NCBI GenBank assembly: GCA_031266335.1
Contig: JAISBF010000081.1
Span: 1 to 32,907, forward strand
Reading direction: 5' to 3'
Origin: Verrucomicrobiales bacterium
GTDB taxonomy: Bacteria; Verrucomicrobiota; Verrucomicrobiia; Methylacidiphilales; JAAUTS01
DNA length: 32,907 bases
Shown in pieces: positions 3,886 through 32,337 of the stretch; position 1 is the stretch's first letter, and each line of letters starts with the position of its first letter. The notes under the pieces were generated by a model. The model was given only the letters and a program-made list of their open reading frames with translations. It made no database searches and was not told where the DNA came from. Both the position numbers and the translations under genes were made by a program.

Positions 3886-3892
3886 AAGGTTG

Positions 3893-4022: not shown

Positions 4023-4025
4023 TTG

Positions 4026-6137: not shown

Positions 6138-6138
6138 C

Positions 6139-6391: not shown

Positions 6392-6547
6392 TCATTCCCC
6401 CATCTCATTGCAGTTCACAAACTCAAACCGCCCGTCCGCGCTGACACTGGCGGGGAACCCCGCCGGCACCACGCAGTTGACGAAGCGGTAGCGGACGACG
6501 GCGGCAGGGTCGGCGCCGATTTTAAACTTTAACTGCGGGTCGCTCAT
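6392..6547 (-). CDS. Small phage protein (51 aa)
   Basis: The product begins MSDPQLKFKIGADPAAVVRY and ends FVNCNEMGE. Its ATG at 6547 has an AAGGA element seven bases upstream, one of the clearer ribosome sites in the late operon. Its ATG also overlaps the stop of a possible upstream frame (ATGA). Predicted as a compact beta-rich protein. The location between tail tube and tape measure suggests a tail assembly or accessory role. No family is recognised. Confidence 0.65.
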   Translation of the reverse strand: MSDPQLKFKIGADPAAVVRYRFVNCVVPAGFPASVSADGRFEFVNCNEMGE

Positions 6548-6678
6548 GGTATTATCCTTAAATCATGCAACTCCTGCTTGACTTGCTGCGCGATGTGATT
6601 GTGCTGTTGCTGTTGGTCGGCCTGCTGATTAACGGGGTCAAACGATTGCGCGCTTGGCACCGTGCCAAGGGCGGCCAA
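6544..6678 (-). CDS. Possible 44-aa Gln-rich protein with TTG start
   Basis: The frame LAALGTVPSAQSFDPVNQQA continues through a QQQQ run to HDLRIIP and stops at TGA, overlapping the next ATG by the ATGA arrangement typical of this operon. The only plausible start is TTG at 6678, inside the edge of a B repeat, so the original start may have been displaced by the repeat. The Gln-rich helix makes the opposite strand look like a Leu-rich membrane peptide, so the coding strand is uncertain. By position it could be the second tail assembly chaperone. Confidence 0.4.
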   Translation of the reverse strand: MAALGTVPSAQSFDPVNQQADQQQQHNHIAQQVKQELHDLRIIP

Positions 6679-6679
6679 T

Positions 6680-6785
6680 GCAAAATTAAAAGATAGTTCG
6701 CGCCTGAGCCTCCCCCGCGCCAGCGCTGTTTAAATTTTGCTCTGCAATTTTGCATTGTTAATTTTCATTTTTTAATTTTTCTTCC
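6680..6785. repeat. Module B hairpin, short form
   Basis: A reduced left arm at 6680-6692 and a full inverted right arm at 6732-6781 (AAATTTTGCTCTGCAATTTT) flank a GC-rich loop containing CCGCGCCAGCGCTG. The same loop sequence recurs in the hairpins at 6965-7108 and 11279-11440. Confidence 0.75.
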
Positions 6786-6925
6786 GGCTTAAGCTGCGCC
6801 AGCGCGGCCAGCGCGTGATCGGGCAGTTGGTCAACGCTGACGGTGACAGTCCAGTTGTCGCCTGGCGCGAAATGCTCGACGCGGGCTTGGCCGTTGCCGA
6901 GGATGGTGATGATGATGCGTTGCAT
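6758..6925 (-). CDS. Small phage protein (55 aa)
   Basis: Starts at ATG 6925 (MQRIIITILGNGQARVEHFA). The longer upstream extension has poor composition. A beta-rich core is followed by a helix (DHALAALAQLKPEE). The last six residues (KLKNEN) and the stop come from the edge of repeat B, so the native C-terminus may have been replaced by the repeat. It sits between the fibre-like and tape measure genes. Function unknown. Confidence 0.65.
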   Translation of the reverse strand: MQRIIITILGNGQARVEHFAPGDNWTVTVSVDQLPDHALAALAQLKPEEKLKNEN

Positions 6926-6964
6926 GGTGGGTTGGGTACTTTCTTTCCGGGTTGGTGATGGTGG

Positions 6965-7108
6965 TAAATTCAAAGTGCAAAAAGCAAAATTAAAAGTGGC
7001 AGTTTAAAATGCAAAATTGGCCCCGCGCCCGAAGTAACCCAGCGCCAGTGCTGTTTAAATTTTGCCCTGCAACTTTGCATTGTTAATTTATAATTTATAA
7101 TTTTTTTT
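6965..7108. repeat. Module B hairpin
   Basis: Left arm AAATTCAAAGTGCAAAAAGC and inverted right arm ending in an A/T-rich run (7080-7108) around a loop containing CCAGCGCCAGTGCTG. It lies between the fibre-like gene and the 55-aa gene. Confidence 0.85.
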
Positions 7109-7111
7109 GGG

Positions 7112-8497
7112 TTATACGGGAATGATGGTGCCGCCGGTGAGTTGGTGGGTGTTAAAGTTGTCGGTCACTTTGAAATGCTGAAGGAGACCGCTGCCCTGCA
7201 TCCCGCTACTCGGGCAATAAATCATCAACTTTACCAGGTTGCCGTCGCCAGTCAGCACGCCCCAGTCGGAGTAAAAATGCCAGCCGCTGTTGACTTGGTA
7301 ACGGTTCAAATCCATCAGTATAATGTTGTTATTGCCGGCGATGACCCATTTGCCAAAGTCAAATATCGGCCAGTTGGCGAGGGCTGAATCGGGGAAGCCC
7401 ATTACCAGCCGGATGCTGGCGTAGTTTCCAAAATAGCTTTGGTAATAACTCAGCGCGCCGTAACCATCGCGGTAAAACAAGATGCTGGCGGCGTTCGGGC
7501 CGCCGTTTTGCCAGCTGATACCCGGCTGGTCGGCCAGGTCGCCGCTGAACAGTCCGTAGGTACCAACAGGTTGTTCATTATAAGTTATTAGTTGGTTCGG
7601 GGTTTGCAGGTAGAGGTTTACTAATGACGGCGGTGTATTGTAATTGAATTTGTCACCGCTGAGACCTGGGCCATATAAGGCCCAAACTTCGGTTTGCTGG
7701 CCGTTGCTGTCCGTCATGGTGTCCAAGTGCCAGATGCTCACCTCCACGCCGACAACGAGCACATTGTTAGAGCCGGTGGCGACGCTGCTGGCGTTAAGCT
7801 GAAGCCCGCCCAGGGTATCGATATACTGGGTAGAATAGTTTATTATTCGTGCCAGTTCATGGTCGGCGGGCATGATGGGGCGGTCTTGCAGGGTCTGCCA
7901 GGAGTTTTGCTTTTCCCAGGCAACCCAGCTGCCGTTGATTTTGTAGCGGGAATACATGAGTCTCGGGTTAGACTCGCGCCAGGCAAGGATGACGCACTGG
8001 CTGGCGTTGTGCCACATGACTTGATAGAACCACGTGGACTCTGAGTTGGGCGCGTTATGGCCGGCGCCGGCCTCCGTGCGGTAAAAGCCGCTGGCGGTGA
8101 CGGTACTGATGTCGGCGACGGTTTGCGCCACTGTCGGAATGAAGGGCGGCAACTGCATCAGCGGCACCGTGCCGTCAACCAGATCGGCCTTGGTGTCCAA
8201 CGCGGCCACAGCTTGATCGGCGGTGTCCTGCGCCAGATCCGCCTTCTGCTGCGCGGTGGCAGCGTCCCCCAGCGCGTCGTTGGCCGTGCCTTGCGCCTGC
8301 TCGATCTGCGCCGCGGCGGCGGCCAGTGCGGTGGCGTCGGCCTTGGCCTGCAAGTCGCTGGCGCTGGCCATGCCGGCCTGGGCCAGGGTTTGGAGTTGCG
8401 CGGCGCTGACGCCGACGGTGGCGCCGGCTTGGTCGGCGGGGAGTTTTTCCGCGCCGGTTAAGGCGGCGGCGGGTGGTAATGATGTGATAGTCTTCAT
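7112..8497 (-). CDS. Tail fibre / receptor-binding-like protein
   Basis: 461 aa from ATG 8497 (MKTITSLPPAAALTGAEKLP). The longer frame upstream is translated repeat B. Residues 10-115 hold the LTGAEKLPADQ element common at the start of phage fibre modules, then an Ala/Asp/Gln-rich coiled coil (trimeric stalk). Residues from about 130 are a beta-rich globular part with a sugar-binding-like look: SGFYRTEAGAGHNAPNSEST, WHNASQCVILAWRES, and many Trp, Tyr and Asn residues. This is the classical stalk-plus-tip layout of an adhesin that recognises the cell surface. It is oddly placed before the tape measure gene rather than at the end of the operon, which may reflect a module insertion. No intramolecular chaperone motif is seen. 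Confidence 0.7.
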   Translation of the reverse strand: MKTITSLPPAAALTGAEKLPADQAGATVGVSAAQLQTLAQAGMASASDLQAKADATALAAAAAQIEQAQGTANDALGDAATAQQKADLAQDTADQAVAALDTKADLVDGTVPLMQLPPFIPTVAQTVADISTVTASGFYRTEAGAGHNAPNSESTWFYQVMWHNASQCVILAWRESNPRLMYSRYKINGSWVAWEKQNSWQTLQDRPIMPADHELARIINYSTQYIDTLGGLQLNASSVATGSNNVLVVGVEVSIWHLDTMTDSNGQQTEVWALYGPGLSGDKFNYNTPPSLVNLYLQTPNQLITYNEQPVGTYGLFSGDLADQPGISWQNGGPNAASILFYRDGYGALSYYQSYFGNYASIRLVMGFPDSALANWPIFDFGKWVIAGNNNIILMDLNRYQVNSGWHFYSDWGVLTGDGNLVKLMIYCPSSGMQGSGLLQHFKVTDNFNTHQLTGGTIIPV

Positions 8498-8680
8498 AAA
8501 TTTCAAATTACAAATTTCAAATGCAAAATTGCAGAGCAAAATTCAAAATGAACGCCGGCCATCCGGCTCCGCCGCATTTTGAATTGGCTTCACTTCGTTC
8601 GGAGTTTGAGGCGGCGTGTAATTGCCGCCTGACATTTGGCATTGCAATTTTGCATTTTGCTTTTTTCATTTTGCTCTTTC
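8498..8680. repeat. Module B hairpin carrying an inverted module F at its centre
   Basis: B left arm (8502-8550) and B' right arm (8637-8680). Between them lie GCCGGCCATCCGGCTCCGCC and, at about 8587-8632, a copy of F' (GAGGCGGCGTGTAATTGCCG). It is diverged from the F copies at 17936 and 21924, which sit inside A modules. The same module is thus found inside two different host repeats. Confidence 0.8.
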
Positions 8681-9170
8681 ATAAAACTTCGATGGTTACC
8701 AGGTAATCCCCGGCCAACGTCGCCAGCGGCTCGCCGGTGAGGGTCGCCAGCGCGTGGGCCGGGATTGTATCCGGCACGGGTTCTTCGCCGCCGTCCGACA
8801 GCGGCCCTTCAATGAGCAAGGTAAGCTGGTAGCCGTCGCTCAGGCCGACGCGCTTGATTACTTTGCCGCCTTGCATCACCGCGTGTGGAGATTCAACGAA
8901 TAGGCCGTTTTCCTCGATGGTTAGCACGCCCTCGACTGGCAAGTCCTGCAACCGCTTGAACATCGCCACCATGCTCTGCGCGACGCTGGCGTGCGGCGGG
9001 TCCCACACGGTCAGCGGCAGCGTGTAGAGCCGGTTGCCGCGCGGCCACACACGCTTCCAGTCACCGCGCAGGAACGCCGCGACTTGCGTGTCCTGCGCCA
9101 GCTCGGGCCACACGCCGGAGACTTGGTCCAGCGTGTCCACAATGACGGTGTTGCCGAGGGTGATTTTCAT
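8679..9170 (-). CDS. Putative tail protein (163 aa)
   Basis: Begins MKITLGNTVIVDTLDQVSGV. An alpha/beta protein with KRVWPRGNRLYTLPLTVWDP and a C-terminal pair of near-repeats (ALATLTGEPLATLAGDYLVT). It directly follows the tail tube gene, a position usually occupied by tail proteins or chaperones. Its fold cannot be assigned from sequence inspection. No paralogue is seen in the window. Confidence 0.6.
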   Translation of the reverse strand: MKITLGNTVIVDTLDQVSGVWPELAQDTQVAAFLRGDWKRVWPRGNRLYTLPLTVWDPPHASVAQSMVAMFKRLQDLPVEGVLTIEENGLFVESPHAVMQGGKVIKRVGLSDGYQLTLLIEGPLSDGGEEPVPDTIPAHALATLTGEPLATLAGDYLVTIEVL

Positions 9171-9173
9171 TTT

Positions 9174-9208
9174 TTATCTCAAAGCTCAAAACTCATAACT
9201 CAAAACTG
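9174..9208. repeat. Module K, single arm
   Basis: CAAAGCTCAAAACTCATAAC and a following CAAAACTGG lie in the short gap upstream of the 163-aa gene. A related inverted copy is at 11622-11657, where it is translated. Confidence 0.7.
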
Positions 9209-9219
9209 GAATTGCGTTT

Positions 9220-10425
9220 TTAGATTGCCGTGGCGCCGACGTAGATCAGCGGGTTGGCGACGCCGTTGTTAAAGGTGCGGCTGGCGCGGAAGGTCAGCGC
9301 GCCGGCGCGGATGTCCTTTTGGTTGAAGTTGCTCGGGGCTTCGCTCAAGTTGGCACCGTAGAGGCGGATGAACACGTTGGCGCCGCTGATGTCCAGGTCG
9401 TCGCCGCCGGCGTTGAGGCTGCGGCCCACCCCGGCGCCGGTGCCTTGCAGGAATAGCCGCGCGAAGAGGTCTTCCTCGTCCACCACTGTCGGGGTGAGGC
9501 TGGCGGTGACTTCGAGGTTGGTCAGTCGTTTGCCGGTGACGCCCATGTTGTCGGTGGTGCGGTCGTCCAGCGACGGGTTGAAGTTGACGGTGATGCCGTC
9601 CGTGGTGTCCATGAGGTCCCACGGGAAGCCTTTGTTTTGCCAGGTCACTTGGTATGCCTGGGTGATGATGCCGGCGGGGTCGAAGCTAGTGTCGTCGAAT
9701 GGCGCGTCCTCGATTTTGAACAGGCTATTCGCGTCGATTCGGTCATGGCGGTTGCGCGTCCAGGCGCTGAAGGTGAACTTGTCAAACAGCGTCTTGTTAT
9801 GCCCGCAGATGATGTTGCCCGGCGCGGTGACGCCGCCGTTGAAGAACGTGATGCGCTTGCCGGCGAAGGTGTGCAACACCAGGTTGCGCTCAATCACCAG
9901 CGCGTAGCGGCCGCTGCCGCCGGCACCGTTGCCGTGGTTCACGGGGTTCGCGCCGGTCTGCGCGTCCGCCAGCGTGAGGTGCAACGTGAACACGCCCGGG
10001 TCCGCGTGCGCGTGGACGTAGTAGAGCGTGTCGGGGTTGATGCCGGTCGGCGTGGCGCCGCGCGCGCCGAAGTACACCGTGTCGCCGGTGGCCAGGCCGT
10101 ACAGCGGGAAACCGGTCAACAGCAGTTGCGTGTCGTTTTGCAGGTTGGCGTCGCGGAACGGAATCACCGGCGGGATGACGCTGCCCATCGGCCAGTTCGC
10201 CACCTCGTAGAAGCGTCCATACTGGCCCCAGACGCCGGCGGGCGTGAGGCCGAACTCGACGAACGAGTGGTCCACGCGCGTGTCCGCATCGCCGTGGCCG
10301 TCCACCGGCACGGGGAACGTGTTGACGCGCGGGTTGAGGGTGATGCCGTCCTTGGTGTAAATGGCCGCGGGTCCGAGTTTGAGGATGCCGGGGCCGCCGA
10401 CTTGCGTTGCGAGGTCTAGTTTCAT
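9220..10425 (-). CDS. Major tail tube protein with inserted beta domain
   Basis: 401 aa from ATG 10425 (MKLDLATQVGGPGILKLGPA), with AAGGA nine bases upstream. The longer frame upstream is repeat A. The N-terminal part (GVTLNP-like, ...HSFVEFGLTPAGVW) and C-terminal part (VTGKRLTNLEVTASLTPTVV, ALTFRASRTFNNGVANPLIY) look like the two halves of a siphophage tail tube subunit. Between them lies an extra beta-rich stretch of about 70 residues (FPLYGLATGDTVYFGAR to LVIERNLVLHTF), probably a decoration domain exposed on the tube. There is no contractile sheath gene beside it. This argues for a flexible, non-contractile tail, as in the transposable siphophages B3 and D3112. Confidence 0.7.
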   Translation of the reverse strand: MKLDLATQVGGPGILKLGPAAIYTKDGITLNPRVNTFPVPVDGHGDADTRVDHSFVEFGLTPAGVWGQYGRFYEVANWPMGSVIPPVIPFRDANLQNDTQLLLTGFPLYGLATGDTVYFGARGATPTGINPDTLYYVHAHADPGVFTLHLTLADAQTGANPVNHGNGAGGSGRYALVIERNLVLHTFAGKRITFFNGGVTAPGNIICGHNKTLFDKFTFSAWTRNRHDRIDANSLFKIEDAPFDDTSFDPAGIITQAYQVTWQNKGFPWDLMDTTDGITVNFNPSLDDRTTDNMGVTGKRLTNLEVTASLTPTVVDEEDLFARLFLQGTGAGVGRSLNAGGDDLDISGANVFIRLYGANLSEAPSNFNQKDIRAGALTFRASRTFNNGVANPLIYVGATAI

Positions 10426-10445
10426 CTCGTTGATTCCTTCATTTT

Positions 10446-10565
10446 TTTCACCACTAAGACACCAAGGCACAAAGGTTTTTTTAGGTGGCAAGCTGCCGCG
10501 GTGGTCACGCTTAAAAAAACTGCCTTCCTTCGTGTCTTAGTGTCTTCGTGGTTCATTTTTTTCCT
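10446..10565. repeat. Module A hairpin
   Basis: The left arm CACCACTAAGACACCAAGGC and the inverted right arm CCTTCGTGTCTTAGTGTCTT enclose a loop with GGTGGCAAGCTGCCGCGG. Both arms keep the change GACACTAAG relative to other copies, so the arms have either co-evolved or been copied together. Confidence 0.9.
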
Positions 10566-10567
10566 GG

Positions 10568-11278
10568 TTAAAACTGTCGGGTCGCGCAGTTGCTGGCCGC
10601 CAGCGTTGGACTGTACGCCACGGCGCGCACCAGCGTGCCGGGCTGCACGGGGAACGCCCCGTGGTACAAAGTGGCCGCCGACGGTGACGGGTAGTCGCCG
10701 TCGAGCGTGTAATAAATTGCGTCACCGTCAGCGGCGGTGAGGGTCGCGGTGTCGCCGTCAACGTCAATGCGCGGGGTCATGGCGCGGTAGCACGGCTTGA
10801 GGCCGAGGCCCATGCGCAGGTAACAATCGTAAATCACCGCCGAGGTTTCGCGCGACAGGTCGGGCGCCAGGCAGTTTTTGTCCGCGTACAACACCGCGCC
10901 GTTGAGGCCGAGGTTGAGTTGGTGCAACTCGTTGAGCACGATCAGCGCCACCTCCTCGGCGCTTTGCAAGGTGCCGGTCGCGCCCATGTTGACGAGCGGG
11001 TTCTCAATCACGCGCACGCCGAGCGTCACTTGCAAGTTTGGGCCGGGCAGTTGGTCGTCGTTGGCGGCGGTCGGCATGCCCACGAAAATCGCCACGCCCG
11101 CCTTGCCGTTCCTTTGCAACAATCCTGCAAGGGCGTTGTTGATGGTTTGCTGGATGAGTGTGGCATCCAGGTTTTCACGCGGGCGCACGGTGTTGACCGG
11201 CACGTAACGCAGTCGCGCCGCCGCGTCCAGCCGCGCGGCAGTGTCGAGTTGCAATCTCTCTAACGGGCTGACTGACAT
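10568..11278 (-). CDS. Phage tail completion protein (DUF1834-like) with C-terminal chitobiase-like domain
   Basis: 236 aa from ATG 11278 (MSVSPLERLQLDTAARLDAA). Residues 1-165 resemble Mu gp37/DUF1834-type tail terminator proteins (PGPNLQVTLGVRVIENPLVN, then ALIVLNELHQLNL). The C-terminal 65 residues (TPRIDVDGDTATLTAADGDA, IYYTLDGDYPSPSAA, GTLVRAVAYSPTLAAS) match the small beta-sandwich known from the C-termini of chitobiases and beta-hexosaminidases, with its YTLDGxxPS signature. The domain is common as a fused accessory in phage virion proteins. Order (after gpG-like, before tail tube) supports a head-tail joining role. Confidence 0.65.
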   Translation of the reverse strand: MSVSPLERLQLDTAARLDAAARLRYVPVNTVRPRENLDATLIQQTINNALAGLLQRNGKAGVAIFVGMPTAANDDQLPGPNLQVTLGVRVIENPLVNMGATGTLQSAEEVALIVLNELHQLNLGLNGAVLYADKNCLAPDLSRETSAVIYDCYLRMGLGLKPCYRAMTPRIDVDGDTATLTAADGDAIYYTLDGDYPSPSAATLYHGAFPVQPGTLVRAVAYSPTLAASNCATRQF

Positions 11279-11440
11279 AATTTCAAATTCCAAACTTCAA
11301 ATTCCAATTAATTTCCAAATTCAAATCTCCAAATCCCAAACTAGAGGCCGCTACCGCGCCAGCGGTGCTGGTTGATTTTTTTGTCGCTCTTTGAAATTTG
11401 GAGCTTAATTGGAGTTTGGAATTTGGAGTTTGGAATTTTT
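11279..11440. repeat. Module C hairpin
   Basis: Left arm C (TTCAAATTCCAAACTTCAAA, 11281 on) and inverted right arm (TTGGAGTTTGGAATTTGGAG, to 11440) with a GC-rich apex CTACCGCGCCAGCGGTGCTG. The right half is inside the open frame of the upstream gene and supplies its last residues. Confidence 0.9.
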
Positions 11441-11658
11441 TCTCTCACCGTCTGGTAACACGCCTCCAGTTCGCCGCTGACGGCCAGTGCCAAATCCGGC
11501 GCGAACTCCACGCAAAACTTTTTTCCGCCGTGGCATTCCACCCATAGCGTCACCCGCGCGTCCGGCGTCAGGGCGGTCAGGCCCGTTTGCGCCTCGACCG
11601 CGTGGAACACCACGGCGTGTGGGCTTTGAGCTTTGAGGTTTGCGCTTTGAGTTTTCAC
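11341..11658 (-). CDS. Small head-tail joining region protein bounded by translated repeats
   Basis: 105 aa. The GTG at 11658 overlaps the TGA of the gpG-like gene (GTGA), so the start is well placed. Residues 2-15 (KTQSANLKAQSPHA) are translated module K. Residues from about 72 on (REKIPNSKFQTPIKLQISKS and beyond) are translated module C. Only the middle (about residues 16-70, HAVVFHAVEAQTGLTALTPD through FAPDLALAVSGELEACYQTV) looks like a native protein. It is similar in size and place to Mu gp38-type small proteins. Function unknown. Confidence 0.55.
   Translation of the reverse strand: MKTQSANLKAQSPHAVVFHAVEAQTGLTALTPDARVTLWVECHGGKKFCVEFAPDLALAVSGELEACYQTVREKIPNSKFQTPIKLQISKSDKKINQHRWRGSGL
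11622..11657. repeat. Module K, inverted arm, inside a gene
   Basis: GGCTTTGAGCTTTGAGGTTT continuing to GAGTTTTCAC is the inverse of the K copy at 9174-9208. It encodes the first residues of the 105-aa protein. Confidence 0.7.
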
Positions 11659-12266
11659 GTCAGTTCCTCTAGGTAAGCGTCAAAGCCGCGCCGCGCGGCG
11701 GCCTCGATAACAGCGTCAGACGGCAGTGTGTCCGGGTCGCGCGGCACATCCACGAACGGGCGCAGCCAGTACATCACCAAGCCTGGCTCCTTGGCGCTGC
11801 CGATGCGCCGCCGCTTGTCGCCCTTGGCGCGAGCCTGTTTGCGCGCGCGCTCGTCGGTAATCAGCGCCTTGGCGCCGGAGGCGAAAATGACAAAACGCAG
11901 GTTGTTAAAGGCACGGGGCCATTTGCCGTAGGCTTCCGCGCGGGCGGGGATGGCGAGGTTTTTATTTTTCGTGGGACGGACTGTGCCGCCGTAATAATGC
12001 AGCGCCAGCCCGCGATGGCGGATGCTGATGACCGCGCCGTCAGCGACCAGTTCCGGCTCGTCGGTGGCCTCCGCCGCTTGGTGCCAGTAATTGCTTTTGG
12101 GAAAGTGGTTGCGGTTGGGGCGCGCGTTGCGGCGCGTGAAGTGGTCAACAATTTCTTCCCGAACCTCACCGGCCATGCTCAGCGTCACGCGGCTCGGTTT
12201 TAATCCCGCGCGTAAACGCCGCAAATACGGCGTGACGGTGTCGGTGATGTCAACGCTGATGCTCAT
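11655..12266 (-). CDS. Phage virion morphogenesis protein (Mu gpG / tail completion S family)
   Basis: 203 aa from ATG 12266 (MSISVDITDTVTPYLRRLRA). The longer frame upstream is repeat B. Features typical of the gpG/P2 gpS family are seen: an N-terminal amphipathic helix, GEVREEIVDHFTRRN, the basic GGTVRPTKNKNLAIPARAEA segment and a closing alpha region. The family is needed for tail stability or head-tail completion. The stop overlaps the next GTG. It follows the MuF-like gene, as gpG does in Mu. Confidence 0.75.
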   Translation of the reverse strand: MSISVDITDTVTPYLRRLRAGLKPSRVTLSMAGEVREEIVDHFTRRNARPNRNHFPKSNYWHQAAEATDEPELVADGAVISIRHRGLALHYYGGTVRPTKNKNLAIPARAEAYGKWPRAFNNLRFVIFASGAKALITDERARKQARAKGDKRRRIGSAKEPGLVMYWLRPFVDVPRDPDTLPSDAVIEAAARRGFDAYLEELT

Positions 12267-12324: not shown

Positions 12325-13716
12325 TCATGACAGCAAGCCCTCCGCTTTAAGTTGACGGGCGCGGGCGCGCACTTTGAGCGCCAGTAAAATTGTCTTGAGG
12401 CGCGCCTTGGTTTGTGCGATATTTATGCCAGCGGCGGGCGCACCCGCTGACAGTCGAGACGATCGTAGGCTGTCAGTGTGTAGGTTCGATGGAATTACTA
12501 CCTTCCTCGAATTCATCAACCCCGCCGCTGCTTTTTGGTGACTGGCCGATGGCGTGTATCCGGTCAAAACCCAATGACGCCGGTCTTTCCCCTCGGTCTT
12601 GGTCAACACCACCAACGCGTCATCCTTGCTTAGCACAATGCGCTCACCTTGCCGCGATACCATTTTTCCACCCGCGATAATGCCGGGGATTTTTAGCAGG
12701 TCAGCCTTGCCGTGTTTTTCGATGACATGCTTCAAGCCGGTGCCATTTCTGCCCTCATACACAAAATCAATCGGGCCGATTTCAGGATGCGTCATGGCGG
12801 AAACGGCGTCGCGCTGTTCATGCAGGACGCGGCGCGCGGCGCGCAGGCCGCGGCTGTGCTGCACCGCCTGTTCCTTCGGCGTCCAACCACCGGCACGCCG
12901 CGTCTCCCAGCCTTTGACCGCGCCCTCGCTGGTGCCGTCGTTGGCCAGCATCAGCACGCCGTCCACGATTTGCAGGGCGGGGTCGGCGGCAAGGTCGGCT
13001 TGCAACGCGGCGGCGAGACCGCTGATGTTGGCGGAAAACTCCGGCAGCGGCACGTCCGCCGGTTCGACCTCCTCGCCGGCGTCAATCACGCCGAGGGCGA
13101 TGGCCTCCTTACGGCGCACCGGTTTGAGTGCCATGCCGCTGTTGAAGTCAAACGGCGGGTACGGCTGGTCGAAGCGCGAGATAGCCGTCCACACCGGATC
13201 GTTCACCGGCGCAATCATGCGGCCGTCATACAGTTCGCCGCCGGCGTCGAGCCAGCGCTCCTGCCAATCGCGCGGCGCGCGGGACTGGCGGCGACGCACC
13301 AGTTCGTTGCACGGGAACAACCAGAGGCGGTCGGGGTTTTGCCTGGCGACATTGGCGGCGTAGCCGCGCACTAGGCCGACGCGCGTCTCAATGACCAACT
13401 GGCGGCGGCGGTCGGAGGTGTGGTCGGTGAGTTCGTCGCCTTCCTCCGCCGCGAAGCCGCGCGCGCGCAATATATCGCCCAGCCGCGCCTTGGCCTCGCT
13501 GACGCTCATCCCGCCGCTGGCGACGCCGCGCGTCACCTCGTCAACGCCCTGCAAATACTCCGCGTCGTCCATTTTCGCCGAGAACACGGCAAGCTGGCGC
13601 ACGCGGGCGGAAAGTTTTTCCTGTATCTCGCGGCTGCCGAGCGTGGTGGGCAGCAAGCCTTGTTTATCCAACAAGGCAATGGCTTCCTTGAACAACATGG
13701 GCTTGCTAAATTTCAC
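12325..13716 (-). CDS. MuF-like minor head protein fused to a PBECR-type nuclease (putative polymorphic toxin)
   Basis: 463 aa. The start is GTG 13716, fixed by AAGGAGG six bases upstream. The 16 residues that could precede it are translated module C. Residues 1-215 are the MuF/SPP1 gp7-type head morphogenesis region, with the family motif W-x-W-like DWQERWLDAGGELYDGRM and WTAISRFDQPYPPFDFNSGM. Residues 316-388 carry GTGLKHVIEKHGKADLLKIP, IVLSKDDALVVLTKTEGK and HWVLTGYTPS. This pattern fits the phage PBECR (Barnase-EndoU-ColicinE5/D-RelE-like) nuclease domains, with H330 and H335 as catalytic candidates. MuF proteins with C-terminal toxins are known as injectable phage effectors. No obvious immunity gene adjoins. 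A palindromic element (12447-12476) lies in the C-terminal tail. The gene sits after capsid and gp36-like genes rather than next to the portal as in Mu. Confidence 0.75.
   Translation of the reverse strand: MKFSKPMLFKEAIALLDKQGLLPTTLGSREIQEKLSARVRQLAVFSAKMDDAEYLQGVDEVTRGVASGGMSVSEAKARLGDILRARGFAAEEGDELTDHTSDRRRQLVIETRVGLVRGYAANVARQNPDRLWLFPCNELVRRRQSRAPRDWQERWLDAGGELYDGRMIAPVNDPVWTAISRFDQPYPPFDFNSGMALKPVRRKEAIALGVIDAGEEVEPADVPLPEFSANISGLAAALQADLAADPALQIVDGVLMLANDGTSEGAVKGWETRRAGGWTPKEQAVQHSRGLRAARRVLHEQRDAVSAMTHPEIGPIDFVYEGRNGTGLKHVIEKHGKADLLKIPGIIAGGKMVSRQGERIVLSKDDALVVLTKTEGKDRRHWVLTGYTPSASHQKAAAGLMNSRKVVIPSNLHTDSLRSSRLSAGAPAAGINIAQTKARLKTILLALKVRARARQLKAEGLLS
12447..12476. repeat. Intragenic palindromic element in the toxin C-terminus
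   Basis: CTGACAG (12447-12453) and CTGTCAG (12470-12476) are perfect inverted arms. Between them, ACGATCGT (12459-12466) is itself a perfect palindrome. It is translated in frame as part of HTDSLRSSRLSAG, downstream of the nuclease domain. Confidence 0.6.
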
Positions 13717-13730
13717 GCCAGACCTCCTTG

Positions 13731-13933
13731 AAGGAAATTCCAAACTCCAAATTCCAAAATCCAATTAACTCCGGCCACGAAGACGCGAAGGCGCGAAGGA
13801 TTTTTTACAGGGAGTTCATGGAGGACATGGAGCTTCTTTTTAAAACCTTCATGAACTCCATGGTCTCCCGGTAAAATATTTCTTGGCGCCTTGGCGTCTT
13901 GGTGGCCGGAGTTGTTTGGAGTTTGGAATTTCA
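13731..13933. repeat. Three-layer nested inverted repeat C-A-G/G'-A'-C'
   Basis: Order from left: C (13736-13767), the ACTCCGGCCACGAAGACGC junction and A (to 13805), G (13806-13833), a short loop with CTTCTTTTTAAAACC, then G' (13846-13875), A' (13880-13910) and C' (13914-13932). Every layer is matched by its inverted copy in mirror order. It fills the gap between the MuF-like and gp36-like genes and touches both. Confidence 0.95.
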
Positions 13934-26917: not shown

Positions 26918-27472
26918 TTAGTTGTTAGTTTTTTTATTTACCGCAGGGACGCGGAGGATACGGTTGATGATGGCGATGCGCTGCCGGTGCTTGATCATTT
27001 GCGCGCTCAGCGTGGAGCGTTCCCACGGCAACACGTCTTGCTGCAACGCTTTGACCAGCGGCGCGTAGGTTGCGGTGTCGCGCGAACCGCCAAGAACAGT
27101 GTGAATCATGTTGACGGTAAAACCGTGTTGTTCCGCCCAGTCGCCAAGATCCCGACCGGTGGCGAGACTCCACCTTTTAACCAAGTCCGCGTCCATGCCA
27201 AAGGAACCTAACAGGTTGTGATGCGGTTTTTTGATGCCGGTGTATTTTTCCAGCGTGGCGAGGTGCCAGCCGTCCTTTTCCAGCTTGCGAAAAGCGCGAC
27301 CGACGGCTTGATAGGAACGTCCCTTTTTGTCACTTGCAAATTCCTTGCACAATGCCAGCAAACTTTTTTGACGAAAGCGCAGCCGCTCTTTGATTTTACA
27401 GCACACATCCAACATCCGTTGCGCCTCTTTGAGACGTGCTTGTTCGCGTTGGTCTTGGACGGTAGCTTTCAT
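26918..27472 (-). CDS. DNA-binding protein with BcepMu gp16-like helix-turn-helix
   Basis: 184 aa. The N-terminal half is basic and helical (RLKEAQRMLDVCCKIKERLR). Residues 109-146 (LGDWAEQHGFTVNMIHTVLG through YAPLVKALQQD) match the BcepMu gp16 family of phage-associated helix-turn-helix domains (pattern: WA-x-x-HG-[FY]-x-x-x-x-[IV]-x-x-VL-x-G). It overlaps the upstream ribbon-helix-helix gene by ATGA, so the two are translated together. Likely a regulator of the early region. The last residues (RVPAVNKKTNN) come from a degenerate module D (ACCGCAGGGACGCGGAGGA). Confidence 0.7.
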   Translation of the reverse strand: MKATVQDQREQARLKEAQRMLDVCCKIKERLRFRQKSLLALCKEFASDKKGRSYQAVGRAFRKLEKDGWHLATLEKYTGIKKPHHNLLGSFGMDADLVKRWSLATGRDLGDWAEQHGFTVNMIHTVLGGSRDTATYAPLVKALQQDVLPWERSTLSAQMIKHRQRIAIINRILRVPAVNKKTNN

Positions 27473-27690
27473 TGTTTCACACTAAAATTGCGGTTGTTGT
27501 TGCCAAATTTGACAGTCTTAATGGACCGTTCGTTCACCAAACCAAGTTCTAGCTTGGCGCACCAACGCATATAACTAGATCTATCCATCTCAAGCTCCTG
27601 GGCGCGTTGCTCAATCATCTGCAAAAGCTCTTTGCTAATACTGATAGTAAATGCTGTTTGCCCAGAACTACGTTTTATTTCTCTCGCCAT
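27469..27690 (-). CDS. Ribbon-helix-helix (Arc/MetJ-like) regulator, leftward
   Basis: 73 aa: MAREIKRSSGQTAFTISISK, with the beta strand TAFTISIS at about 12-19 and helices ELLQMIEQRAQELEMDRSSY and MRWCAKLEL. This is a textbook ribbon-helix-helix fold, with a basic N-terminal arm. It is transcribed away from the 53-aa ribbon-helix-helix gene across an 83-bp spacer. The pair therefore replaces the usual Mu c repressor/Ner switch (inference). It is probably the lysogenic or early regulator binding the operators in the spacer. Confidence 0.75.
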   Translation of the reverse strand: MAREIKRSSGQTAFTISISKELLQMIEQRAQELEMDRSSYMRWCAKLELGLVNERSIKTVKFGNNNRNFSVKQ

Positions 27691-27773
27691 ATAATCATTA
27701 TGTCATACGCAATAATACGCCACAATTTTTTTCTTGTTGACATTGAGTGATATTGAATATTATTGTGTCATAG
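27691..27773. promoter_or_regulatory. Divergent control region between two ribbon-helix-helix genes
   Basis: A/T-rich spacer unlike the rest of the window. Rightward: TTGACA at 27737-27742 and TATTGT at 27761-27766 (18-bp spacing), with the ATG only eight bases later and no Shine-Dalgarno. Leftward: on the minus strand TTGTGG and CATAAT with a 17-bp spacer. The word TATTATTG followed by GT occurs once facing each gene, making an inverted repeat (27708-27717 and 27758-27768) that overlaps both promoters. These are good candidate operators. Confidence 0.65.
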
Positions 27774-27935
27774 ATGAAAACAAGAAAGCGCAAACTTAGT
27801 AATGAAACACCAGTTAGCTTTCGCCTGCCTGCTATCCTGCAAAAACTTTTGTTAGAAAAGGCACAAAGCGAAGACCTCACCTTTTCGCAGATAATCCGGC
27901 GTGCCGTACGCCACGAACTGGGATTAACCAAATGA
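27774..27935 (+). CDS. Small ribbon-helix-helix protein, first gene of the early operon
   Basis: 53 aa: MKTRKRKLSNETPVSFRLPA, then helices ILQKLLLEKAQSEDLTFSQI and IRRAVRHELGLTK. A basic arm, a TPVSFRLP strand and two helices fit the CopG/Arc fold. The ATG lies eight bases after a good -10-like hexamer, so its mRNA may be leaderless. The stop overlaps the next ATG (ATGA). By position it corresponds to Ner/Cro-type early control proteins of Mu-like phages, although the fold differs. Confidence 0.75.
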   Translation: MKTRKRKLSNETPVSFRLPAILQKLLLEKAQSEDLTFSQIIRRAVRHELGLTK

Positions 27936-28360
27936 AAACCAACCAGCTATATCGTCCGGTTTTTTCGCTTGCGTGCGCATGGTACCAACTCGAACAGCGC
28001 ACCCGGAAATTGTCCGCGCGAATTCGTGTTGCCGCTGACGTTGACCGTGAACGCCGGGACCTTTTTTTACCAGCAGCGGGTGCTTTGGCGGCCGCCGCCG
28101 AATCGCTGCACGGGACGTGGAGCGGTATCGGCAACTGCGGCATGGATATTTTCTATGACGGTCAAACACCGCCCGCGAAAAAGACACGGAAAAAGCGGAC
28201 GCGGTTCCCGAACATTTGCGCCTTTATCCAACGCGCCAAAGTCACACGGCAACACGCCTATCTGGTGCTGAGCGGCCAGCGCCAGAGCCGCCGCCTCATG
28301 ACCGCCTGGAAAAAATTTCAAGCGGAGACTAACCAATTGCACCTGGAGGCGGGCCAATGA
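27932..28360 (+). CDS. Early operon protein with C-terminal helix-turn-helix-like region (142 aa)
   Basis: MKTNQLYRPVFSLACAWYQL at the start, a central Ala-rich helix, a basic KKTRKKRTRF linker and RFPNICAFIQRAKVTRQHAY followed by LVLSGQRQSRRLMTAWKKFQ. The last 45 residues read as a helix-turn-helix related in layout to gp16-type domains (R-x-x-AYLVLSGxR-x-S). ATGA overlaps on both sides tie it to its neighbours. Possibly a second early DNA-binding protein. No family is certain. Confidence 0.6.
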   Translation: MKTNQLYRPVFSLACAWYQLEQRTRKLSARIRVAADVDRERRDLFLPAAGALAAAAESLHGTWSGIGNCGMDIFYDGQTPPAKKTRKKRTRFPNICAFIQRAKVTRQHAYLVLSGQRQSRRLMTAWKKFQAETNQLHLEAGQ

Positions 28361-28986
28361 GCGGGGACAACGAAAAAAATATTCTGCGCGGAGCGATGAA
28401 TTTGAGCGTCGCATGGGGTGCTGGCGTGTTGATGGGTTTGTTCCTGCCGGGCACCGCGGCGGGTAAATGGTGCCTGGCAGCTGGTTCGATTTTGATGCTG
28501 TCTGTCGGTATGGTGTCGTTGGTCCCAGTGGTCATGGAGCTTATTAAGCTCGCGGCGGTTTATCGCGGTGCAGGATGTGATCGTGCAACCAATCGGAACG
28601 CCCAGTGTCTCGCCAATACTCTATCAATAGCTGCTCTAGCGCGGTTGTGCCACCTTCTCCGGTCTCATAGACCATTGTCGCCATATCTCTGCAGTACCAT
28701 ACGGCGCAGTCTAGGCGCAGACACACTGCCACCCGCTGACGTTCTGTCAGCGGCGGCCAGCATAGCATACGCGCGTAAGCTCGCACAATGCCGTCAATCG
28801 CGTCCTCGTCCCAATCCTGCATGGCAAGCGTTATATCGTAAATACTCACGAAAAACGGTAAGTGCGCCAGCCGCTCAAGCTCACCCTGAAAAAACGGAAC
28901 CAAATCTCCCCAATACTTTGGTGTCACGTCCCGAGATTAGCGCCGCTGATGCCGATACTCAACCCCGAACGGAGCCTAACCCATGA
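28357..28986 (+). CDS. Small membrane protein with an anomalous C-terminal extension
   Basis: The frame is 209 aa and has ATGA overlaps at both ends, so it belongs to the early operon. Residues 13-32 (MNLSVAWGAGVLMGLFLPGT) and 37-60 (KWCLAAGSILMLSVGMVSLV) are two transmembrane helices, ending VVMELIKLAAVYR. From about residue 66 the composition changes to an Arg/Ser/Cys/Pro-rich, unstructured sequence, exactly where a convincing gene lies on the opposite strand (28544-28927). The native gene is probably about 65-80 codons and its 3' part has been replaced by inserted DNA. The role of the membrane part is unknown. Confidence 0.5.
   Translation: MSGDNEKNILRGAMNLSVAWGAGVLMGLFLPGTAAGKWCLAAGSILMLSVGMVSLVPVVMELIKLAAVYRGAGCDRATNRNAQCLANTLSIAALARLCHLLRSHRPLSPYLCSTIRRSLGADTLPPADVLSAAASIAYARKLAQCRQSRPRPNPAWQALYRKYSRKTVSAPAAQAHPEKTEPNLPNTLVSRPEISAADADTQPRTEPNP
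28544..28927 (-). CDS. Orphan 127-aa protein antisense to the early operon (moron-like)
   Basis: GTG start at 28927 (MTPKYWGDLVPFFQGELERL). A helical acidic protein with many aromatic residues: VSIYDITLAMQDWDEDAIDG, VRAYARMLCWPPLTERQRVA, VCLRLDCAVWYCRDMATMVY, EQLLIEYWRDTGRSDWLHDH. It has the balanced composition of a real folded protein, whereas the opposite frame does not. Local GC and third-position GC are lower than in neighbours, suggesting recent acquisition. No family is recognised. Such inserted, oppositely oriented single genes are typical of morons (defence or exclusion). Holds an inverted motif pair at 28733-28753. Confidence 0.65.
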   Translation of the reverse strand: MTPKYWGDLVPFFQGELERLAHLPFFVSIYDITLAMQDWDEDAIDGIVRAYARMLCWPPLTERQRVAVCLRLDCAVWYCRDMATMVYETGEGGTTALEQLLIEYWRDTGRSDWLHDHILHRDKPPRA

Positions 28987-29399
28987 CTAACCAACTTGAG
29001 TTTGACTGGCTGGTCGCCACCTACCGCCCGCTGCTGACGGTGAGTGAGACGCAAATCATCCTCCACGATTGCTCGGCGCAGCATGTGCTTAATTTGCTCG
29101 ACGAGGGACGGCTGGCGGGGGTGGACATCGGCAACGGCAGCGTGGAACGTTGTGTGCGGGTGTGGCGGCACGCGGCGTTGCACGCGGCGCTAAAGCCAGA
29201 GTTGCCGCTGCCGGTGATTGCCACCGGCGAAATTTTGCCGCATCACCGCCCGACGATTTTCCAGCATGAACTGGCCCGCTGGTGCGGGTGCGCGGCGAAC
29301 ACCGTGGCGGGCTGGGGGCTGGCGGGGCCGCGCACGGACCGGCGCAATGTGTTTTTCCGCGAGGCGGTGATTGAGTTTTTGGAGCGGCAGAAGATTTAA
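28983..29399 (+). CDS. Early DNA-binding-like protein (138 aa)
   Basis: MTNQLEFDWLVATYRPLLTV, then ETQIILHDCSAQHVLNLLDE and GRLAGVDIGNGSVERCVRVW, which resembles an excisionase/MerR-like wing-helix (a helix, a GRLxGxxIG wing and an R-x-W strand). A second similar region is in FQHELARWCGCAANTVAGWG with RTDRRNVFFREAVIEFLERQ. Two tandem helix-turn-helix-like units suggest a DNA architectural or regulatory protein. ATGA overlap with the gene upstream, then a repeat element. Could help transposition or control early genes. Confidence 0.6.
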   Translation: MTNQLEFDWLVATYRPLLTVSETQIILHDCSAQHVLNLLDEGRLAGVDIGNGSVERCVRVWRHAALHAALKPELPLPVIATGEILPHHRPTIFQHELARWCGCAANTVAGWGLAGPRTDRRNVFFREAVIEFLERQKI

Positions 29400-29402
29400 A
29401 AA

Positions 29403-29518
29403 ATATGCACCACGAAGACACCAAGGCACGAAGGAAACCAAAAAAACTTTGTGTCTTGGTGTCTTGGTGGTGAAAAAAAAGGCACCACGAATGGACGCGA
29501 ATTAACACGAATAATTTT
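29403..29518. repeat. A-A' hairpin plus module E, the only such repeat in the rightward arm
   Basis: CACCACGAAGACACCAAGGC (A), CTTTGTGTCTTGGTGTCTTG (A'), then GCACCACGAATGGACGCGAA (E) directly before the next start codon. Confidence 0.9.
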
Positions 29519-30349
29519 ATGAAAAAACCAATAGCAAAAAATCAAGCAGCGAAATTAACCAAACCTGTCACCGTCAGCGGCCGGCTGGATGCCGGCGTGC
29601 TGACGCGGAAGGAGGCGCCGAAGATATCACCGGCGGCGGCGGAGTCCAGGGCCATCATCAAGGCGCTGGACAACGGGGCGGATCTGGAGATGGGGCTGCA
29701 ACTCACCGCGCAGTATCAGCGCGCCATCGGCGGCATGACCGAGGTGCTCAAGTTCGGCGCAATGATGATGCGGTTGCGTGAGCACTTGTCACAGAGTCCA
29801 CGTGCGGACTCTGTGAAGTTAAAGCGCGGCAAAGATGTCGCTGACGGTGGCATTGACGGCTGGCTGAAACGCTACGCGCCCCAAGTCAAGCACGCCACGG
29901 CCTACCGTTTCCTGCACGTGGCGGAGGCGGTGCTGGGGGACGTAAAAAAACAACTGCCCGCGCGCGTGAGTTTTGTCGAGCTGGTGACCAAGCCGGCCGC
30001 CGAGCTGTCGGCCAAGTTGCAAAAAAAGCAACTGGAGTTGTTTGACTACGTCAGCGGCACCAGCCAGCGCTCCTGGCTGGACATGTTCCGGCCAAAAACG
30101 CCGCTGGGCGGCCTGCGACTGCCGGCGAAAAAGGCCGCGGCGGCGGACGGCGCTGACGCTGGCGCGGCGGCGGCGCAAGCCGAGCAAGACCGCCGCGCGC
30201 TGGGCGTGACCGCTTACACGGACTTGACGCAATACCTGGACCGGTGGTTCGCCAACGACAATCACCTGCACCTGACGCGGGATTTGCGCGGGCAACTCGC
30301 CGATATTTTCTCGCAGGCGATTGATAAACTCAAGGCGGTGAGGGACTGA
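29519..30349 (+). CDS. Early protein of unknown function with DUF3102-like core (276 aa)
   Basis: MKKPIAKNQAAKLTKPVTVS begins a basic low-complexity arm. The core (about 65-145) reads MTEVLKFGAMMMRLREHLSQ, then DGWLKRYAPQVKHATAYRFL and HVAEAV. This arrangement (a helix with a small-residue start, W-L-x-x-[FY], then T-A-x-x-[FL]-[ML]) resembles DUF3102 proteins of plasmids and phages. The C-terminal part has an Ala-rich linker and LTQYLDRWFANDNHLHLTRD. It ends two bases before the transposase gene. An 11-bp-stem palindrome (29789-29816) is translated inside the core as QSPRADSV. Confidence 0.55.
   Translation: MKKPIAKNQAAKLTKPVTVSGRLDAGVLTRKEAPKISPAAAESRAIIKALDNGADLEMGLQLTAQYQRAIGGMTEVLKFGAMMMRLREHLSQSPRADSVKLKRGKDVADGGIDGWLKRYAPQVKHATAYRFLHVAEAVLGDVKKQLPARVSFVELVTKPAAELSAKLQKKQLELFDYVSGTSQRSWLDMFRPKTPLGGLRLPAKKAAAADGADAGAAAAQAEQDRRALGVTAYTDLTQYLDRWFANDNHLHLTRDLRGQLADIFSQAIDKLKAVRD
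29789..29816. repeat. Intragenic palindromic element, 11-bp perfect stem
   Basis: TCACAGAGTCC (29789-29799), loop ACGTGC and GGACTCTGTGA (29806-29816). The peptide it encodes (SQSPRADSV) sits in the middle of the conserved-looking core of the 276-aa protein and interrupts the expected helix, as if inserted. Confidence 0.8.
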
Positions 30350-30351
30350 CC

Positions 30352-32337
30352 ATGCGCGCCGCCCTCATTATCCGCCCGGACTTCCCGCTCGCCGTGCCGC
30401 CGGCGGCGCAGGACGAGTTTGCCGCGCTGACCGCCAGGCAGCGCCACGCGGTGTGGCGCAAGCTGCAATGGCTGCGCGACTGGCCGGCGGACGCGAGCGT
30501 GGCGGCGGCGGCGGCGCGGCTGCACGTCAGCGCGGCGACGCTGTGGCGCGCCACGCAAGACTTCAACCGCGACGGCTGGCGCGGGCTGGTGCCCGGCTGG
30601 CGCAACCCCAACCGCGGGCTGGCGCCGGAGTTTATCGACTACTGGCGGACGCTGGCGGAGAACAGCCAGCGCAAGAACAAGCCCGCGTGGCGAGAGCTGT
30701 GCCGCCGCTGGCAGCGCAAGGACGCCATCCCCGGTTACGCCGGGCATCCGGGCTGGCCGAACCTGCCCGCCGGCTGGACTTACGGCAACCTGGGCAGATT
30801 TTTGCGCAAGGTCGAGCTAGTCAGTTTCCGCATCGGCAAGGGCGCGGCGGCGGCGCTGCTGCCGCAGACGTTCACCACGCGGGTGGGGTTGTGGCCGGGC
30901 AGTCATATCCAGCTTGACGACATGCTGGGGGATTTTTTCGTCAACGTGCTCGACCGTTACCAGGCGGTACGGCCGCTGTTCCTGCACGCGCTGGACTGCT
31001 ACAGCGGTAATTTGGTCGAGTGGGGCACGCGGCCCCGCCTGAAAAACTTCAAGGCGGAAAAGCAGGACGGCCTGCTGGAGAGCGACACGCGGCTGTTGGT
31101 GGCGGCGCTGCTGTGCAACCACGGCTACCACGCGGAGCGCGGCACGACGCTGATGGCGGAGCACGGCACCGCCGCGGTGAACGAGCGGGTGGAGAAAATC
31201 TTGTTCGACGCCACCGGCGGCAAGATACGAGTTAGACGCAGCGGGATGACGGGCAAGGAACAGGCCGTGGCCGGCCTCTACGCCGGCGACGGCGGCGGCA
31301 ACTTCAAATTCAAGGCGATGTTGGAGTCGCTGCACAACTACACGCACAACGAGCAGGGCTTCCTGCCGGGGCAAACCGGCCCGGACGTGCCGCGCCGGCC
31401 GGAGCACCTGGACGGGCTGTTAAACCGCAACGCGGCGCTCTTGCAAGCGCACGGCAAGCTGCCCGCCGAGCGCGCTAACCGGCTGGTGTTCCCGCTGATG
31501 GAGTGGCGCGACTTCATCGCGCGCAATACCGCAATCTACCGCCTGATCAACGCGCGCACCGACCACGCGCTCAAGGACTGGGCGGAGTGCGGGCACGTCG
31601 TCAGCGAGTTCCGGCTCGCGCCGGACAGCGACTGCTGGCTGGGCGCGGCGGAGTTTGCGCGGCTGCCAGCGGCGACGCAAGAGATCATCCACAGCCTCAT
31701 CGTCGGCGGCGCGGCGGGTTACACGCGGGCGCGGCGGCTCTCGCCCGCCGAGGCGTGGGCGCGCGGCAAAAACGAGTTGACGCCGCTGCCGGCGGCGGCG
31801 TTGGCGGAGATGCTGCTGGCTGACCGCGGTGTGGAGCGCGTGACGGACGGCTCTTACTTTTCGTGCCGCGACAAGGACGTGTCGCTGGACCCGCTGACTT
31901 ACGAGGCGGTCATCATCAGCGCCGACGGCACGCGCCGCGAGGCACCGCGCGGGGAAAAGTTCATGACACTGGTCAACCCGTTCGTGCCGGCGCAAATGCA
32001 CCTGTTTGACGCGGCGGGGCGCTACCTGGGCTGGTGCGCGCAAGTCGAGCGCGCCAGCTACGACGACGTGGAGCGGACTCAACGGCAATGGGGTCGCAAC
32101 GCGGCGCGGGCCAAGGACCTGTTCAAGGCTATGCGCATCCGCCGTCACGCGTGGAGCGAGGCGCGGGCCGCTGAGGACCAGCACAACCTCGACATCATCG
32201 AGGGCGTGACGCCGGCGGACCGCGCGGCGGCGCGGCAGGAACAGGATTTACACGACCGGGCCGTGGCGGCCACGGTCGCGGCTAACAACAAAACCAATAA
32301 CAACGAAGAGGCGCAACATGAGTGTGACGAATATTGA
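30352..32337 (+). CDS. Mu A-like DDE transposase
   Basis: 661 aa starting MRAALIIRPDFPLAVPPAAQ. Residues 43-85 form an N-terminal helix-turn-helix (VAAAAARLHVSAATLWRATQ). The RNase H-like core follows: first acid in HIQLDDMLGDF (D189/D190), second-acid position in TTLMAEHGTAAVNERV (E270-H-G where most families have D-N/H-G), third acid in KAMLESLHNYTHNE (E325). The beta-barrel and C-terminal part continues to about 590, and an Asn-rich tail overlaps the ATPase gene by 20 bases. Length equals that of MuA (663). It performs strand transfer at element ends for integration and replicative transposition. The triad would be D-E-E here. Confidence 0.9.
   Translation: MRAALIIRPDFPLAVPPAAQDEFAALTARQRHAVWRKLQWLRDWPADASVAAAAARLHVSAATLWRATQDFNRDGWRGLVPGWRNPNRGLAPEFIDYWRTLAENSQRKNKPAWRELCRRWQRKDAIPGYAGHPGWPNLPAGWTYGNLGRFLRKVELVSFRIGKGAAAALLPQTFTTRVGLWPGSHIQLDDMLGDFFVNVLDRYQAVRPLFLHALDCYSGNLVEWGTRPRLKNFKAEKQDGLLESDTRLLVAALLCNHGYHAERGTTLMAEHGTAAVNERVEKILFDATGGKIRVRRSGMTGKEQAVAGLYAGDGGGNFKFKAMLESLHNYTHNEQGFLPGQTGPDVPRRPEHLDGLLNRNAALLQAHGKLPAERANRLVFPLMEWRDFIARNTAIYRLINARTDHALKDWAECGHVVSEFRLAPDSDCWLGAAEFARLPAATQEIIHSLIVGGAAGYTRARRLSPAEAWARGKNELTPLPAAALAEMLLADRGVERVTDGSYFSCRDKDVSLDPLTYEAVIISADGTRREAPRGEKFMTLVNPFVPAQMHLFDAAGRYLGWCAQVERASYDDVERTQRQWGRNAARAKDLFKAMRIRRHAWSEARAAEDQHNLDIIEGVTPADRAAARQEQDLHDRAVAATVAANNKTNNNEEAQHECDEY

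Follow-up and report, generated by a model that had tools for sequence, protein, structure and literature searches.

A conserved sense/antisense gene pair among the early genes of a Mu-like prophage, with evidence for overprinting

The window (the whole stretch of 32,907 nucleotides analysed here) is one whole contig of a Verrucomicrobiales genome in 222 contigs, and carries a Mu-like prophage. Its early operon is read rightward: a ribbon-helix-helix gene (27774–27935, +) is followed by a gene at 27932–28360 (+), the 209-aa plus ORF (28357–28986, +), a gene at 28983–29399 (+), another at 29519–30349, and the Mu-type transposase A gene (30352–32337, +; phrog_310, E 7e-20). The first of these holds a Ner/Cro-like position, with a PF01402 match just at the cut-off. 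The gene at 28983–29399 has a weak HTH match (HTH_17, E 0.019, below cut-off), and its tblastn search of phage records gave one match at E 0.1. Left of the operon lies a leftward gene, 27469–27690 (−), a candidate lysogeny regulator with a weak CopG-type match (CopG_antitoxin, E 0.052, below cut-off); a gene 50% identical to it was found near the L054 pair described below. The other arm of the prophage carries Mu portal and terminase genes, and a protein encoded near the portal gene (12325–13764, −) carries a PBECR1 nuclease-like domain (PF18809, E 1e-8) at its C-terminus. An intergenic repeat of the CACCACGAAGACACCAAGGCACGAAGG type at 29385–29481 matched on both strands, and dozens of copies occur in the genome (82 query matches, nearly all of them the repeat).

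The plus ORF, third gene of the operon, was annotated at first pass as ATGA-coupled at both ends, and this is correct. Its start forms an ATGA overlap with the stop of 27932–28360, behind a Shine-Dalgarno-like GGAGG at 28345–28349 (whole start signal 28345–28360, +), and its end forms another with the start of 28983–29399, where the coupled stop and start read CGGAGCCTAACCCATGA (28970–28986, +). The minus ORF (28544–28927, −), read on the opposite strand, falls entirely within the plus ORF; it begins with GTG and encodes a predicted five-helix protein of 127 aa. By analogy with pC1 of phage Fc02, a lysogeny promoter is predicted in the leader of the minus ORF (28928–28990, −). No consensus promoter for the minus ORF was recognised in the window, and a clear Shine-Dalgarno site was found neither before it nor before the minus ORFs of the other loci.

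We searched for relatives of the minus protein. A profile search of 384 genomes of the class gave two clear matches besides the window's own, GTDB genomes gave five loci (two of them on the same contigs as the class-genome matches), and IMG/VR gave two. With duplicates counted once (L059 is on the L054 contig and L062 on the L055 contig), the family comprises eight distinct loci: the window, L054 from a Spartobacteria MAG, L055 and L063 from Puniceicoccaceae MAGs, L060 and L061 from Opitutaceae MAGs, and L064 and L065 from virus contigs. Thirteen residues are invariant in all eight proteins, which share the motif W.P L..R.RL.L.LRL.CA.WYC ... LLI.YWR..GR..WL, and AlphaFold2 modelled five helices from the eight-row alignment (pLDDT 87.1, pTM 0.81). 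Further scans added no loci. Single proteins or profile A1 found no relative among the viral contigs, a rescan of these with profile A5 returned only L064 and L065 again, profile A5 found only G106 in 177 genomes of that genome's order, and tblastn of the minus protein against phage records gave one weak match (E 0.5). Weak profile matches in G012, G022, G138, G183, G320, G433, G437, G471 and G490 were not counted as family; they were partial and in some cases interrupted by stops. The strongest two, L057 and L068 (E about 1e-7), had ordinary chromosomal surroundings by eye. Beside the L063 pair is a possible diverged minus paralogue with a long open antisense frame (L063:26–472, +, with L063:66–476, −), which a one-sequence search scored at 9.8 bits (E 4e-5).

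Library searches yielded no name for the family. Pfam, PHROGs and PADLOC gave nothing usable, Pfam offering two single-member matches at E about 0.02. By sequence, the best PDB match was at E 0.067. Foldseek searches of the viral and PDB libraries with the minus model gave nothing at E 0.001 or better, and a second look by VIA gave a best Z of 3.6 (70 residues, rmsd 3.4), within the common range. Judged by its homologues, the minus protein belongs to a real family to which none of the searched libraries gives a name.

At two of the eight loci, L060 and L065, the homologue is an ordinary sense gene, and the opposite frame is closed, by 7 and 3 stops respectively. The L060 gene stands in a same-strand gene row, adjoining a DUF4365 gene and outside any recognised phage operon. 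The L065 gene follows immediately on an HTH gene and is read in the direction leading away from the transposase; Mu-type transposition genes are present there. The family thus also occurs without overlap, which supplies a built-in control for the comparisons below.

At the other six loci (the window, L054, L055, L061, L063 and L064) the minus gene is embedded: the opposite frame is open along almost all of the gene, in the same phase, in six of six. Identity among these minus proteins averages 38% (26–55% by pair). The longest stop-free antisense runs, measured against maxima equal to the minus codons less one, were 126/126 in the window, 118/118 in L054, 118/122 in L055, 140/140 in L061, 122/129 in L063 and 134/134 in L064. 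Shine-Dalgarno-like start sites and ATGA at both ends mark the plus ORF in three loci, the window, L054 and L061, the downstream partner in L054 running off the contig; the plus ORFs of L055, L063 and L064 have no ATGA coupling. Mu-type transposition genes lie downstream in L055, L061 and L064, and the contigs of L054 and L063 stop a short way off. On both sides of the L054 plus ORF, at L054:6994–7005 and 7410–7421, is the same Shine-Dalgarno/ATGA junction with the shared stretch CACCCCGAAAGGAGCCCAATGA, as though identical coupling sites allowed genes to be swapped like cassettes.

How surprising is an open plus frame? Under minus-synonymous shuffling it stayed open with P of 0.050–0.056 in the window, 0.23 in L054, 0.025 in L055, 0.047 in L061, 0.31 in L063 and 0.066 in L064, and the six loci combined gave a Fisher p of 0.0027. 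For comparison, 15 of 403 transposase windows of 126 codons, from 14 genes, were open in the same phase. In the window alone, then, the open plus frame is only mildly unusual, and frame openness by itself is weak evidence; it is the conservation across phages that exceeds chance.

The phase of the overlap bears on both composition and conservation. The first base of a minus codon lies opposite the first of a plus codon, the second opposite the third, and the minus wobble opposite the second, so that synonymous changes in the minus gene mostly alter plus amino acids. At 0.547, the GC content of the minus ORF is below that of the window (0.604) and of the transposase (0.686). Minus GC3 is 0.51–0.65 across the six embedded loci, and transposase GC3 is 0.89 in the window, 0.88 in L061 and 0.80 in the L064 phage. 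The first pass had described a convincing 127-aa antisense gene of lower GC; the gene is real, with homologues in other contexts, and its GC is indeed lower. We did not accept low GC as proving that the gene is foreign. Since the minus wobble is a second position in the plus frame, double coding itself draws the minus third base toward the composition typical of second codon positions, and would give the lower GC.

We measured plus-frame similarity against synonymous shuffles of the minus gene that kept both minus proteins. The 15 pairs of embedded loci had a mean plus z of 3.2 (0.9 to 7.3), and the 13 pairs that include L060 or L065 a mean of about 0.5 (−1.7 to 2.4, the upper value reached by the control pair L063–L060). 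Pairs with L064 were weak, at 0.9–1.7 in three of five. By minus similarity score L054–L060 are the most alike of all 28 pairs, with 63/113 residues identical, and their plus z was 0.6. Scored jointly, the six embedded loci reached a plus z of 11.1, or 7.8 to 10.7 on dropping any one. The mirror and third antisense phases also rose, to 5.1 and 3.1, as expected if third bases are constrained, although this rise is not specific to the plus frame.

Transposase genes served as controls. In 150 random six-sequence windows, whose mean identity of 31% makes them somewhat more diverged than the embedded loci at 38%, plus z was 0.72 ± 1.13 (maximum 3.53; mirror and third phases at most 3.29 and 2.89, below the values of the embedded loci). 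The transposase controls left out the truncated L064 copy and the duplicate L078, which were represented by L076 and L061; L022 was left out of both the six-sequence controls and the third-base class table. In 263 pairwise windows, restricted to pairs of identity at least 0.28 and with the window–L022 pair left out, plus z averaged 0.29 ± 1.07; it exceeded 3 in 1.1% of the windows and 4 in none. For two transposase pairs with 50% identity it was 0.8 and 0.1. The close pair window–L022, 73% identical, gave 11.2, which shows that the test responds to unsaturated synonymous sites. Part of the plus z of L055–L063 (7.3–7.6 for the overlap gene, 55% identical) may accordingly reflect recent ancestry. 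Neighbouring genes of the same phages gave plus z values of −0.5 to 0.9 in eight pairs: −0.1 for a ribbon-helix-helix pair (50% identity, 62 codons), 0.9 for the L055–L063 Bro-N genes (34%) and −0.5 to 0.0 for six pairs of the next early gene (19–29%).

Stricter nulls lowered the plus signal and left it in place. With third-base matches fixed at the observed 740 (598 under the free null), joint plus z was 5.0; pairwise, with the same third-base tilt, it averaged 1.7 for embedded pairs (15 of 15 above zero) and 0.44 for the other pairs. The strictest null fixed matches in four classes, defined by whether the minus amino acid was the same or different and whether the first base of the plus codon was the same or different, and still gave a plus z of 3.0 (p 0.0013). 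The clearest result lies in the comparison of these classes. Third-base matches were in excess where the first base of the plus codon was shared, 1.36-fold with the same minus amino acid and 1.43-fold with a different one. Where it was not shared, the ratios were 1.00 and 1.10. Without L055 and L063 the four values became 1.36, 1.30, 1.02 and 0.91. In seven transposase sets the ratio was 0.94–1.12 in every class, with the class of different amino acid and shared first base raised by 7–12% in three of the seven (z 3.0–5.6).

These class values bear on whether the third-base constraint could come from an RNA element or residual common ancestry instead of a plus protein. In favour of such an origin, lysogeny switches commonly involve antisense regulatory RNAs, there is some rise in every antisense phase, and the window–L022 transposase pair demonstrates what unsaturated synonymous sites can do. 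Residual ancestry predicts an excess wherever the minus codon is unchanged, while the data track the plus codon, the excess depending on plus first-base identity and hardly on sameness of the minus amino acid; it is disfavoured for that reason. Transposase pairs down to about 50% identity and the neighbouring genes reach no such plus z, the closely similar L054–L060 proteins do not either, and Rfam had no match within 27400–29600. We regard an RNA or ancestry origin of the signal as very improbable.

The first-pass annotation had favoured another account, in which only the minus gene is real: a moron inserted head-on, specific to this window, with the plus frame kept open by chance and shadow-like from about 28550. 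Such an insertion would fit the far stronger conservation of the minus protein and the only modestly unlikely openness of the plus frame. Against it, the plus protein is conserved conditional on the minus proteins, the third-base excess lies mainly in plus-matching codons, and ATGA coupling at both ends recurs in three divergent loci. The shadow reading does not hold, as the plus protein is conserved beyond the constraint imposed by the minus one, and homologues of its C-terminal part are conserved in other phages. We dropped the chance shadow because the nesting recurs in five other loci and that C-terminal part is conserved; an account with only the minus gene real now seems improbable, if less so than one based on RNA.

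The reverse case, with only the plus gene real and the minus ORF its shadow, would accord with the Shine-Dalgarno-like sites and coupling of the plus ORF in three loci and with a minus ORF that has no clear site. It is hardly credible, given the sense-position homologues of L060 and L065, where the opposite frame is closed, and the reverse test. Under plus-synonymous shuffling, minus z averaged 10.7 over the 15 embedded pairs (8.3 to 13.7); the alignments had been made from the minus protein, a choice that tilts this test toward high minus z. By these values the minus protein is the more constrained partner. At the level of sequence, the comparisons show both frames to be held by protein-level selection across six divergent loci. 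True overprinting of two proteins, which the first pass had listed as its alternative, is the better account of this six-locus conservation, and we conclude from the aligned loci that the pair represents a genuine, old sense/antisense overprinting.

The plus protein can be divided into a hydrophobic N-terminal region (residues ∼1–70), an overprinted helical domain (∼76–148) and a Pro/Ala/Thr-rich tail. An AlphaFold2 model from six rows has a run of four helices at 76–148 and a block at 81–140 with pLDDT of 91–94, a score that a helical model of an antisense shadow could also attain; residues 1–60 scored 42–65 and those after 160 scored 46–65. The membrane start of two helices proposed at first pass survives in part. 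Kyte-Doolittle analysis of the window's protein supports one clear hydrophobic segment, at ∼38–69, and the first putative helix falls under the 1.6 threshold; among the six proteins only the window's has a two-helix-like hydrophobic N-terminus. Across the 384 class genomes the plus profile matched strongly only in G000, G195 and G106, all at embedded loci, and weakly in two places broken by stops. PHROGs gave nothing solid for the plus family (one member at E 0.023), and the L064 plus protein found only itself among the viral contigs. Foldseek gave no PDB match for the plus model at E 0.001 or better, and in the second look by VIA the best Z was 5.2 (67 residues, rmsd 3.6), within the common range.

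A second Mu-like copy in the same genome, L022 on contig C128, has a transposase 72–73% identical to the window's and a copy of gene 28983–29399 that is 91% identical. DNA similarity begins at window position 28923 and covers the downstream ATGA junction. At the position of the pair, L022:1–448 carries an IS1595/ISXO2-like element (PF12762, E 1e-25), and the contig ends inside the IS, which makes this copy uninformative on an empty slot. A minus-strand ATG there matches the position of the window's minus start by eye, and the 20-odd codons that follow are too few to assign. By tblastx, transposase A is mosaic relative to L022 (30352–30800), with N-terminal pieces at ∼49–52%, the rest at 77% and more than 90% over the start of the following gene. 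Eight further loci with transposase relatives (L023–L030), some incomplete, gave no minus-family match.

The minus family occurs without the plus frame and, in the genomes searched, the reverse was not found, so the minus gene is likely to have come first. In our interpretation an older minus gene, encoding a five-helix protein, would have been placed head-on into the early operon, and the folded middle part of the plus protein would then have been overprinted on the complement of the same codons. An old insertion followed by overprinting stays plausible on two grounds, the sense-gene homologues at L060 and L065 and the lack of a strong plus-profile match beyond embedded loci in the 384 genomes.

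The orientation of the pair suggests how the two proteins may be used. In Fc02, a Mu-like, B3-like phage of Pseudomonas aeruginosa, strand-specific RNA-seq is reported to put gene 10 immediately behind ner in the early lytic operon; gene 10 is overlapped antisense by olg1–olg2 on the lysogenic transcript leading into the repressor, and Olg1 and Gp10, expressed from plasmids, are each described as excluding phages (PMC9936078). By analogy, the early lytic transcript would supply the plus protein, and the minus protein would come from a leftward transcript of lysogeny that continues toward the repressor genes, and the two would therefore be made at different times; the leftward transcript would also be antisense to the early operon. 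At L061 an S24-type repressor gene (PF00717, E 2e-17) lies ahead of the minus gene and shares its strand, and the early genes and the transposase occupy the opposite one. In the window the minus ORF is read toward leftward genes, among them the weak CopG-type gene 27469–27690, which sits downstream of it in the minus reading direction.

Since the topology matches that of Fc02, and the L065 homologue stands just behind an HTH gene, we infer a lytic/lysogenic pair engaged in immunity or exclusion; immunity or superinfection exclusion is the most likely function, by this analogy, of one or both proteins. The joint reading, a nested pair of real genes in a Mu-like early region with Fc02-like expression and a role in immunity or exclusion, is the one we favour and hold to be fairly probable. 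A rival that overlaps with that reading also takes the pair as real, and has it act instead as a toxin/antitoxin-like, defence/counter-defence or anti-repressor system. The L060 minus gene, beside DUF4365 and outside a recognised phage operon, and the L065 gene, directly behind an HTH gene, would suit such a role; the minus family has no PADLOC match and none of use in Pfam or PHROGs, and the topology is that of Fc02, whose two proteins exclude phages. We consider another function of this kind unlikely, though less so than any account with a single real gene.

A broader proposal, slightly less doubtful than that one and still tentative, is that the nested genes form a double-coding lysis/lysogeny module, convergent in transposable phages of two phyla (Verrucomicrobia-type hosts and Pseudomonas B3-like phages). 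Exclusion proteins of the lytic and lysogenic phases would be encoded on opposite strands of the same codons, and through antisense transcription making one would work against the other; the pair would be kept down to ∼38% identity.

Morons, the lysogenic conversion genes of temperate phages, are one class of genes with which the minus gene can be compared. It resembles them in pointing against the early operon and in having homologues elsewhere, and differs in sharing nearly all its codons with an operon gene, where a moron is cargo between genes. In the open-access literature on antisense overlapping genes, as represented by titles and the starts of abstracts, we found no published account of this pair. 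The reality of long antisense overlapping genes in bacteria and phages is disputed, partly since conserved, selected pairs are scarce, and the third-base test applied here separates selection on each strand.

Reported bacterial examples come from E. coli O157:H7, among them pop, antisense to ompA (PMC7103648), three novel antisense overlapping genes (PMC9927249) and an overprinted orphan gene (PMC4683798); antisense overlapping genes of the E. coli type are described as mostly young (PMC7103648, PMC7457138). The likeness lies in a long ORF wholly antisense to another gene. The E. coli genes, as reported, come with expression data, whereas the present case is a phage pair with both proteins conserved, at minus identities of 26–55%.

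The closest comparison is Fc02. Shared with it, on its published description (PMC9936078), are a Mu-like phage, a slot in the early operon near the first regulator and an antisense partner in the direction of the repressor, most clearly at L061. The comparison by sequence used the related phage B3: with profiles A5 and A6, no homology was detectable in the B3 early region (AF232233, ORFs of at least 40 aa in 1–12000), where the best matches were at E 0.043 (the Mor gene) and E 0.019 (3390–3824) and the gene-10 position gave only E 2, for A5 on 9337–9768. Because the B3 early region is not detectably related, the present pair would work like that of Fc02 without being the same thing. In Fc02 there is a further overlap, in the same direction, between olg1 and olg2, and Olg1 and Gp10 are reported as expressed and excluding phages (PMC9936078); for the present pair, expression and function are predicted. 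What the present pair sets beside the Fc02 case as described (PMC9936078) is selection across six divergent loci. If confirmed, it would be an unrelated second case and a tractable natural one, in which two folded proteins share almost all their codons at a lysis/lysogeny switch.
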